Positions 25,804 to 28,357 of a stretch of 34,438 bases of DNA are shown piece after piece. Positions within the stretch are counted from its first letter, which is position 1. Every line of letters starts with the position of its first letter. Below the pieces are notes generated by a model. That model saw only the letters and a list, made by a program, of their open reading frames with translations, searched no databases and was not told the origin of the DNA. The position numbers and the translations under genes are program-made. Source of the stretch: Mizugakiibacter sp. (lineage in GTDB: Bacteria > Pseudomonadota > Gammaproteobacteria > Xanthomonadales > Rhodanobacteraceae); NCBI GenBank assembly GCA_003233305.1, contig QILI01000026.1:1-34438 (forward strand), read 5' to 3'.

Positions 25804-26244
25804 TTATTTCGAATGCCCCACCTTGCCATGGTGGCTGGTCTTGGCCCCCTTCATGTCCATGTCATGGCACTCGCTCATCATCTTATGCATCATCTTATGC
25901 ATCTTGGCCATTTTTTTCATCATCTGCTCCTTATTCATCGTTCCTGACATGCCCTTCTTGCCATGCATCCCCGACATGCCCTTCTTGCCCATCATCCCCG
26001 ACATGCCCTTCTTGCCCATCATTCCCGACGTACCCTTCTTGCCCATCATTCCCGACGTACCTTTTTTACCCATCATCCCTGACATATCCTTCTTGCCTTG
26101 CATCATCTTGCCCTGTGCCATCTGACTCGTTGCTGCCGGATGCTTGGCCTGATCTTTTTGGGGAGCGGCTAACAGCACTGGGGCCATGGCGATCGAAGCG
26201 GCAAAAATACTCGCGATAAGGATGGTTTTCGCTGTACTAGTCAT
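25804..26244 (-). CDS. Secreted Met-rich repeat protein, probable copper binder
   Basis: A signal peptide (residues 1-28, ending LLAAP) precedes a mature protein of about 118 residues made mostly of Met, Lys, Gly and His. Residues 45-98 are five and a half copies of a nine-residue unit of the form KKGMSGMMG; two copies carry Thr in place of Met. The tail has KMHKMMHKMM, SECHDMDMKG and SHHGK, a plausible soft-metal site with one Cys. Met-rich periplasmic segments commonly bind Cu(I) or Ag(I), as in CopC, PcoE and CusF-like proteins. I chose the ATG at 26244 because GGAG lies upstream and the signal peptide starts there. The neighbouring DUF411 and Cys/His-rich genes support a copper role, but this is inference; no member of a named family is recognised. 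Confidence 0.78.
   Translation of the reverse strand: MTSTAKTILIASIFAASIAMAPVLLAAPQKDQAKHPAATSQMAQGKMMQGKKDMSGMMGKKGTSGMMGKKGTSGMMGKKGMSGMMGKKGMSGMHGKKGMSGTMNKEQMMKKMAKMHKMMHKMMSECHDMDMKGAKTSHHGKVGHSK
25951..26112. repeat. 27-bp in-frame tandem repeat
   Basis: Units begin at 25951, 25978, 26005, 26032 and 26059, with a partial unit from 26086. Each is 27 bp and encodes nine residues of the Met-rich protein. The 26005 and 26032 units are nearly identical, while the outer ones have diverged, consistent with recent internal duplication. Confidence 0.9.
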
Positions 26245-26435
26245 GATCTTTCTCCTGTCTTGCATGAATGAACTCCCGACCCAACAGCCGGGGTGATGAG
26301 GATCGGATTAAGTAAGCCGACACTCTGATTGCACTGGGCTCAAAACCTGTCAACAGCTGGTTTCCCACACTCGGTCGAGATGACCCATGCATGGTCAACC
26401 CCGTTGCCGACAGCATACCCACGATCACCAACTTG

Positions 26436-26903
26436 TCATTGTGTTGCGTAAATGCGTGATGGGCCATCGGCAATAACATAGACCACGAATGGGGCCTTTT
26501 TAGAACCACCCATTTTCGGATTCTCCATACCTGGAGAACCTGAAGGCATACCTGGTAAGGCTATACCACGAATCTTCGGATGCTCACGTAACATACGCTG
26601 AACGATATTGACCGGAACATGGCCTTCGACCACATACCCATCGACCAGCATGGTGTGGCACGAAGCCAGATCCTGCGGAACTCCATGCTCCTGTTTGAAC
26701 TGCAGAAGCTTCTTGGTCGAGACCACTTTTACGGCAAAACCCCGCTGGTCAAGATGTTGGGCATACAGTTCACAACAGGTGCAGCCCGGACTTCGATACA
26801 GGGTGGTGGGGATCGCCGGGGCCGCCACGGCCGAACCGGCGAAGATGGTCATTGCAGTGGTCAGTGACAGCGTTGTAACCACACGATTCAGGATCTTTTT
26901 CAT
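26436..26903 (-). CDS. DUF411 periplasmic metal-binding protein
   Basis: A signal peptide (about residues 1-28, ending AVAAP) is followed by the DUF411 domain: YRSPGCTCCELYAQHL with the CxCC metal site at residues 41-44, VPQDLASCHTMLVDGYVVEGHVP with a conserved Cys-His and His, and IRGIALPGMPSGSPGM with the family's Pro/Gly/Met turn. DUF411 proteins occur in copper, silver and other heavy-metal resistance loci and are thought to bind the metal in the periplasm. The mature protein is about 127 residues, as usual. GGAG nine bases ahead supports the ATG at 26903; an upstream in-frame GTG at 26918 overlaps that ribosome binding site and is rejected. It lies 191 bp upstream of the Met-rich gene on the same strand. 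Confidence 0.88.
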   Translation of the reverse strand: MKKILNRVVTTLSLTTAMTIFAGSAVAAPAIPTTLYRSPGCTCCELYAQHLDQRGFAVKVVSTKKLLQFKQEHGVPQDLASCHTMLVDGYVVEGHVPVNIVQRMLREHPKIRGIALPGMPSGSPGMENPKMGGSKKAPFVVYVIADGPSRIYATQ

Positions 26904-26932
26904 TGTTTTGTACTCCACAATGTTGATGGCAT

Positions 26933-27123: not shown

Positions 27124-27483
27124 TCAGCCAGCTGTGGAAAAACGCGGGGGGTACGGATCGGGTCCCTCGATGGGGCGACCGTGATGGGTAGGATGAAACA
27201 GGAAACGTGGGGCACTCAGTGACATGAAGCTTGGCAACACCAAAACCTGCACGCCCGCCACAACATCACACAAAGCCATGGAGCAATTTGCCATACTCGA
27301 ACCGCCATGTTGTGGATGTGACGGTTGGGTATTCGCACACATTGTGCAAACAGTGGTCGTCGCTGATGACATGCTGGCCATCGGCACCGGCGCATGACTG
27401 GTCAGGGCCATAGCCGCCGGGCTCGATAGCCCGCCGACAAGCACCAAACTCAAGACCAACAAGCTGGCAATGAAGCGTTTCAC
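27124..27483 (-). CDS. Small secreted Cys/His/Met-rich protein (CopL-like)
   Basis: A 119-residue protein with a clear signal peptide: VKRFIASLLVLSLVLVGG then AAMA. The mature part has CTMC (Cys46, Cys49), an HPQHGG stretch, then NCSMALC (Cys67, Cys72) and several Met residues, an arrangement able to bind soft metals. The C-terminus PDPYPPRF resembles the proline-rich ends of small copper-locus proteins often labelled CopL-like. The frame is open to an ATG at 27528, but that start has no ribosome binding site and would put 15 polar residues before the signal peptide. I prefer the GTG at 27483, also without a strong ribosome binding site, so the start is uncertain. It is first in the minus-strand group leading to DUF411, the Met-rich protein and CcdA. 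Confidence 0.62.
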   Translation of the reverse strand: MKRFIASLLVLSLVLVGGLSSPAAMALTSHAPVPMASMSSATTTVCTMCANTQPSHPQHGGSSMANCSMALCDVVAGVQVLVLPSFMSLSAPRFLFHPTHHGRPIEGPDPYPPRFSTAG

Positions 27484-27645
27484 GTTGTTAAGTGTAGTGG
27501 CCCACCCTGACTCCGACAATCCAGCCATGAGCGCGTGCTACAGCCGGCATTCAGCCATGAGCACGTCGGCTACATCCTCCAGAACCACTCATGATGAGAT
27601 GGGATACGAGCGAATATGGAGCCCATATCCTTCGTACCATACTTG

Positions 27646-27798
27646 TTACCGGAGTCTCGAAGTGTGGTACATCGCTGCCGGCAGTCTGACCTTTTGGAGC
27701 CACCGTAAAACCCGATCCTCGTCTCGAATGATGAGGCCCCGATCGAGCAAAATACTAAGCTGATCACTGAAGGTACGTGCAGGTTTCGTATAGCGCAT
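27646..27798 (-). pseudogene. Truncated Abi-family (AbiF/AbiD-like) gene
   Basis: The minus strand reads MRYTKPARTFSDQL, then LLDRGLIIRDEDR and LRWLQKV, then an unrelated tail and a TAA after 50 codons. This is the standard N-terminus of Abi_2-family abortive-infection proteins (M-x-Y-TKPp-TF-x-QL, LxxRGLII-DxxxAxxxL), which normally continue for about 300 residues. The match stops where the family would read YYRLSAYW, so the rest has been lost by deletion or rearrangement near 27680. GGAA precedes the ATG, and an RNA-like hairpin lies directly upstream as in intact loci. The fragment cannot be functional as an Abi protein. Identification is by motif recall, not search. Confidence 0.68.
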
Positions 27799-27812
27799 TT
27801 TCCAACCAATAA

Positions 27813-27866
27813 AAACCCGCCAAGTATGCGCATCACCTACCGAAACAGGGCTAAGCGTGGCGGGTA
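27813..27866 (-). ncRNA. Structured-RNA-like element upstream of the Abi remnant (abiF-motif candidate)
   Basis: An 8-bp perfect stem, ACCCGCCA / TGGCGGGT (27815-27822 with 27858-27865), closes a 35-nt interior that includes CCCTG/AGG pairing potential and the palindrome ATGCGCAT. On the minus strand the closing stem is followed by TTTTTATT, so the element also resembles a terminator, about 15 bases before the Abi start codon. Conserved 'abiF' RNAs are known directly upstream of Abi genes; whether this matches that motif needs a covariance search. Confidence 0.42.
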
Positions 27867-28133
27867 TGTTGATCGAACTTTACAACACACCGGGAATCGG
27901 AAAAATAGTGAACCTTGTCCAATATTAAATGAGTCCGAGATGATCTGAAGCGGGCTTGGATTCCGTTTATGCTCGGGCAACGAACCGATCAACCCCCATG
28001 TCGGCCACCCAATGGGACGGGTCTTTTGACGTGCCAGCACAGCTGGGTGGAAGCTTGTTGTTGCTTCCAAGCCGGACACGGAGTGTCCACAAACAGGTGC
28101 GACCGCAGAGCCGGGTCAGTCGATAAAAATTCT

Positions 28134-28191
28134 GTCATCCCAGGCTCCACAACAAGTCTTATCATCCGGGGTAGCGACCCGGGATCCAGGG
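28134..28191. repeat. Palindromic dispersed-repeat sequence
   Basis: GTCATCCCAGG, then a second TCATCC leading into ATCCGGGGT-AGCG-ACCCGGGAT (28163-28184), a 9-bp stem with one mismatch, and ending GGGATCCAGGG. The boundaries GTCATCCC and GGGATCCAG are those of the common proteobacterial palindromic intergenic repeats. Confidence 0.55.
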
Positions 28192-28357
28192 TGCGGTCGT
28201 TGCTGCGAGATGGCCTGTCGGCTACGAGACGATTAAACAACTACGAATGCCCACGGCATAGCTTAGGCCGACGCTGTACTACTTGGGTCAAGGTAAACCC
28301 GCTGGGTTTTCCTGCTAACCCCTGCCCCAGCGGCCGCCACACCGCTACACTTTGGGG

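Follow-up and report, generated by a model that had tools for sequence, protein, structure and literature searches.

A locus in the genome of Mizugakiibacter sp. is probably the fossil of an AbiF toxin and RNA-antitoxin locus (a type III-like pair) that lost its toxin first and kept its RNA. It is a known kind of locus, in ruins. We count the homology and fold of the RNA, the homology of the remaining toxin stub and the absence of the Abi_2 domain as demonstrated. In the following, "the window" refers to the whole analyzed stretch of 34,438 nucleotides (contig QILI01000026.1), and R1 refers to a covariance model described in the next section. The relevant features are:

27809-27870, minus strand: abiF-type RNA (AbiFr-like antitoxin RNA / terminator hairpin) with 5' leader AACA; from the R1 covariance match, Rfam RF03085 and alignment to the RNAs of 24 Abi_2 loci
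27858-27865, minus strand: 5' arm of the outer stem, ACCCGCCA; from sequence, fold and pair counts for 7 of 8 pairs
27815-27822, minus strand: 3' arm of the outer stem, UGGCGGGU; from sequence, fold and pair counts for 7 of 8 pairs
27829-27857, minus strand: inner helix, CGC at 27857-27855 paired to GCG at 27831-27829, around a variable apical hairpin; the helix from fold and covariation over 25 sequences, the hairpin from comparison by eye with the RNA of locus L002
27811-27814, minus strand: T run TTTT, terminator-like, 3' of the hairpin; from sequence
27649-27798, minus strand: 50-codon toxin stub, the N-terminus of an AbiF/AbiD protein (Abi_2 family), with the family match at residues 1-37
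27564-27687, minus strand: sequence in the place expected for the rest of the Abi gene, without Abi similarity
27913-28257, strand not given: dispersed intergenic repeats beside the relic in two blocks, 27913-28017 and about 28034-28257; from sequence comparison

The abiF-type RNA

The first-pass annotation described an 8-bp stem that closes a 35-nt interior and is followed by a T run upstream of the open frame, and the sequence is exactly so: ACCCGCCA (27865-27858) pairs with UGGCGGGU (27822-27815), the interior extends over 27857-27823, and TTTT follows at 27814-27811. The end of the stem is 16 nt from the ATG of the stub, which places the RNA directly upstream of the (truncated) Abi_2 gene. 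In a search of the window with Rfam, the abiF family (RF03085) ranks first among 4227 families at 27864-27815 and the match covers the complete model (1-37), but the score of 17.9 bits (E 3.2) does not reach the gathering score of 37. The Rfam check proposed by the first-pass annotation thus gave the right family below the accepted score, and the assignment became clear with a model trained on relatives. The stem sequence of RF03085 is the same as that of the window RNA, whose apical part is 12 nt longer than the RF03085 consensus. When Rfam was applied to 20 Abi_2 loci, only 3 reached the gathering score and 17 did not; 10 of the 20 had an abiF match of whatever score with E up to 10. Set against the recovery by R1 given below, the Rfam cut-off misses most RNAs upstream of Abi_2 genes in the scanned loci.

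The relative-trained model R1 was built after reading the upstream DNA of 35 Abi_2 loci, from which 24 RNAs were taken; L027 was omitted as nearly identical to L026. R1 is based on the alignment of these 24 RNAs without the window, with the structure written by hand. It recovers 26 of the 35 Abi_2 loci at E below 1e-7, L027 and L051 being outside the training set, and 9 of the 35 have no clear RNA, some of them being divergent or broken members. The best R1 match in the window is 27870-27809, which scores 34.8 bits (E 2.2e-7) over the full length of the model (1-57), compared with 18 bits for the opposite strand of the hairpin, and it is also the best place in the whole genome of the organism (E 1.7e-5). 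The outer stem, inner helix, bulge and leader are all present in the window RNA as parts of one covarying structure, with 10 of the 10 modelled pairs formed. In the alignment of 25 sequences (the 24 and the window) 250 of 250 cells pair, and changes on both sides occur at 6 of the 10 pairs; with slid partners the number is no higher than 3.

A close point of comparison is L002, a locus of the same genus (genome G001) whose RNA is 74% identical to the window RNA over 58 nt and has a predicted apical hairpin capped by UUCG. Compared by eye with L002, the apical hairpin of the window reads CCUGU[UUCG]GUAGG with one compensating change, whereas the lowest-energy fold closes the loop differently. 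The predicted fold of the window RNA shares its plan with L042, and its thermodynamic stability is unremarkable (z from -1.5 to -1.9). Next to L002 lies what we take to be a type I methyltransferase gene.

Characterized AbiF/AbiFr systems (PbAbiF, structure 8VZ6, and AbiF-RCd22 of C. difficile) have the same arrangement as the window, a structured RNA and T run followed by the Abi frame. The window differs in that its toxin is cut after about 37 residues and has no HEPN core, in that no clear promoter is seen for the RNA, and in that it holds one RNA motif where RCd22 has two. RCd22 is reported to be transcribed from its own promoter and mostly to stop before the toxin gene, and to bind AbiF and neutralize the toxin both in cis and in trans, which stem mutations abolish (PMC12373285). 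The window RNA keeps the stems required for an antitoxin function of this type. A review reports the structure of a PbAbiF-RNA complex and describes Cas13 as descended from AbiF; in this view, Cas13 and crRNA derive from AbiF and its RNA (PMC12737573). Both sources ascribe to such RNAs in relatives the double role of antitoxin and terminator (PMC12373285, PMC12737573).

The toxin stub and the missing domain

The 50-codon frame starts at ATG 27798 and stops at TAA 27648-27646 on the minus strand. It was noted in the first pass as beginning like Abi_2-family proteins and then breaking off, and this is borne out, as only residues 1-37 match Abi proteins. The N-terminal family stretch Y-x-K-P ... 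Q-L ... R-G-L-I-I is present. Comparison with plasmids (tblastn) yields 16 records with a best E of 4e-3, 10 of them annotated as Abi family protein and 15 ending at residue 37, and among phages 5 records are found, 4 of which are annotated as Abi or abortive-infection proteins. The PADLOC AbiD profile matches residues 2-37 (E 3.9e-4), the alignment with the N-terminus of 8VZ6 is weak (E 1), and searches of the stub against Pfam and NCBIfam give no match. Our own profile, made from the whole and fragmentary Abi sequences of the 35 fetched loci, assigns 29.2 bits to the stub and 3.0 to the next best frame of the window. Among 20,000 shuffles of the 50 residues none reaches 29.2 bits, the best scoring 14.4; on sequence grounds, the stub is not a chance open frame. 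Both the covariance match and the protein similarity on which the first-pass annotation depended were therefore found, the latter by tblastn, PADLOC and our own profile.

The rest of the toxin is not found. The Abi_2 domain (PF07751) has no match in the whole 2.66-Mb genome and none in the stub; the genome is a draft of 172 contigs, given as 99.23% complete. The intact 333-residue Abi_2 protein of L002, which the window lacks, is clearly homologous to AbiF in the solved structure 8VZ6, with which it aligns over 292 residues and nearly the entire length (E 5.7e-40, including the R-N-x-C-x-H-H motif), and as a tblastn query (E up to 10) it finds a single place in the genome of the window, namely the stub locus, where 34 residues align (query residues 38-71, E 0.058). 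Comparison of 35 Abi proteins and fragments with positions 27300-28350 yields nothing convincing past stub residue 38, and the unfiltered profile applied to the whole window has the stub as its only Abi match, again with nothing convincing past residue 38. The HEPN RNase motif, R-N-x-C-x-H-H in relatives, is absent from the frame, which has no Abi similarity beyond residue 38. The Abi_2 domain and the HEPN RNase motif are gone from the locus. Together with the RNA match (34.8 bits with all modelled pairs), these results agree with the original description of an intact RNA beside a lost protein. The sequence at 27564-27687, in the place of the missing part, has no other copy among 13 genomes of the genus at E 0.001.

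A segment resembling the HEPN region at 28264-28211 (best-query E 5.6e-4 for a 1-kb target and 35 queries) was rejected as a chance similarity because it is interrupted by a stop, is located on the upstream side of the RNA and falls mostly inside a many-copy dispersed repeat.

Promoter, genomic setting and RNAs without an intact toxin

A sigma-70-like promoter is found at the expected place, with p<0.05 by shuffles, for 18 of 25 RNAs at Abi-bearing loci. The best site of the window, TTTTCC-16-TAAAGT, is equalled by 387 of 1000 shuffles, and in an earlier, differently scored run 745 of 2000 shuffles were as good. This suggests that the promoter has been lost in the window; the loss is suggested rather than proven because 7 of the 25 Abi-bearing loci also have weak promoters (p>=0.05) and fail the same test.

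In the nearest relative, G012, identity to the window is 81-87% as far as 27563; past this point G012 carries different genes, which we take to be hslR- and htpG-like, and its ubiA-like gene is located on a different contig. Downstream of the relic, the window has a gene at 27124-27528 that is missing from the neighbourhood of ubiA (about 1.5 kb of fetched flank) in all of 10 other loci of the genus; we count this in favour of a fossil. Between 27563 and the ubiA-like gene of the window lie the stub, the RNA and the two repeat blocks. From this stretch, the break against G012 and the ubiA neighbourhoods, it follows that the relic sits at a rearrangement junction. The repeat blocks have many copies in the organism's own genome and in G012 and none in the other 11 genomes of the genus at E 0.001; in part they resemble the common ...CCTGGATCCCGGGTC... 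palindromes, presumably of REP type. The relic locus is in no other of 13 genus genomes, a search of viral contigs for it gave no match, and a scan of genome contigs for relatives of the locus found two Bacteroidales only. In the same part of the window, 26436-26918 encodes a DUF411 protein (PF04214) with a CxCC motif, near the relic, and 25804-26265 encodes a small protein that looks secreted and contains numerous Met/Gly/Lys repeats, almost identical to one another (GMMGKKGMSGMM is an example); its repeat part differs in G012.

Applied to 321 genomes of the class, R1 finds 75 places, of which 43 are full-length and correspond to 40 loci. At 25 of the 40 there is a long Abi_2 frame of at least 260 aa, and one (L084) ends at a contig edge. 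At the other 14 (the window, L090, L095, L099, L102-L107 and L109-L112) the DNA that was fetched contains no intact Abi_2 gene. This count is conditioned on the RNA being found, and some of the 14 RNAs score as low as 30 bits (L112), so it is no evidence that survival of the RNA without its toxin is commoner than the opposite case. Toxin stubs are seen at 3 of these 14 loci, namely the window, L090 (E 0.0015) and L109 (weak, E 1.2, by eye), and those of L090 and L109 break off after about 30-40 residues, as in the window. By the shuffle test, 6 of the 14 toxin-less RNAs keep a promoter, good examples being L090, L105 and L109. In the genome G262 a solitary abiF RNA lies within a duplicated segment of 1.94 kb (L106 and L107, 90.4% identity), and two Abi_2-bearing loci are present in addition; the two RNAs are identical at 46 of 49 positions versus 90.4% over the 1.94 kb, which gives no clear selection signal. 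The RNA of L103 is similar to the L002 RNA, and after it, on the opposite strand, comes what is presumably an IS256-type transposase gene; the solitary RNAs L095, L099 and L105 stand beside genes that we take to be type I restriction genes, a HigA-like gene and a Fic-like gene. Tandem pairs of abiF RNAs, similar to RCd22 with its two motifs, occur at L045/L094 (the same place), L090 and L095, the first of which precedes an intact Abi_2 gene. We found no papers on solitary abiF RNAs among the open-licence papers searched.

Interpretation of the locus

From the studied relatives we infer how the intact locus would have worked, and we likewise infer the order of loss and the present inactivity. 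The RNA, transcribed from its own promoter, would have folded and ended most transcription before the toxin gene, and it would have bound and inhibited the AbiF HEPN ribonuclease. A deletion or rearrangement would then have removed the toxin past about codon 37, the RNase domain included. The RNA was probably left in place because loss of the toxin first is harmless, while loss of the RNA first would free the toxin. Since the genome holds no toxin for it and its promoter is not clear, we take the RNA to be most likely, at present, an unexpressed or weakly expressed relic.

Of the two outcomes offered by the first-pass annotation, a fossil or an orphan RNA that still acts, the fossil is the better supported, as the site at which the majority of relatives carry a promoter shows nothing above chance here. 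One point against a fossil is that all modelled pairs are intact, which could mean that the RNA is still under selection; from sequence alone, a sequencing or assembly error behind the broken frame also retains some probability. A solitary antitoxin RNA that is still expressed could protect the cell from plasmid- or phage-borne AbiF toxins, as anti-addiction or counter-defence; anti-addiction by chromosomal toxin-antitoxin systems has been discussed (PMC12548467), and the activity of the C. difficile RNA in trans would suit such a role (PMC12373285), as would the recurrence of toxin-less loci, some with good promoters. Nevertheless, with its toxin partner absent from the genome, its own promoter not above chance and the L106 and L107 RNAs hardly more conserved than their flanks, we consider it unlikely that the window RNA is still acting in this way.

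That the hairpin is an ordinary intrinsic terminator beside a chance open frame is hardly credible. A hairpin with a T run is what a terminator would look like, and 32 of the 75 R1 places are short hairpins of 28-34 nt, most likely ordinary terminators, with scores up to 35.8 bits. The 34.8 bits of the window fall within this range and alone would not prove an abiF RNA; the full-length match, the inner helix and the neighbouring stub do. The leader and bulge also fit the RNA family, no convincing minus-strand gene ends just upstream, and the adjacent stub outscores every one of its shuffles. It is also very improbable that an intact locus was damaged only in assembly, through a collapsed or chimeric contig: the draft state of the genome, the dispersed repeats alongside and the synteny break at 27563 would be compatible with such an error, whereas the remaining parts of an Abi_2 gene are found on none of the contigs, although the genome is listed as nearly complete.

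The fossil of an AbiF toxin and RNA-antitoxin pair is thus our preferred reading, and what deserves further attention is the recurrence of solitary RNAs. A broader proposal, namely that the antitoxin RNAs of AbiF often persist after loss of the toxin and make up a solitary class guarding hosts against incoming AbiF toxins, to which the window RNA would belong, appears distinctly doubtful at present. Decayed loci of this kind may reveal the order in which AbiF toxin and RNA pairs fall apart, and the solitary RNAs, if expressed, would offer a straightforward system in which to examine the action of RNA antitoxins in trans.
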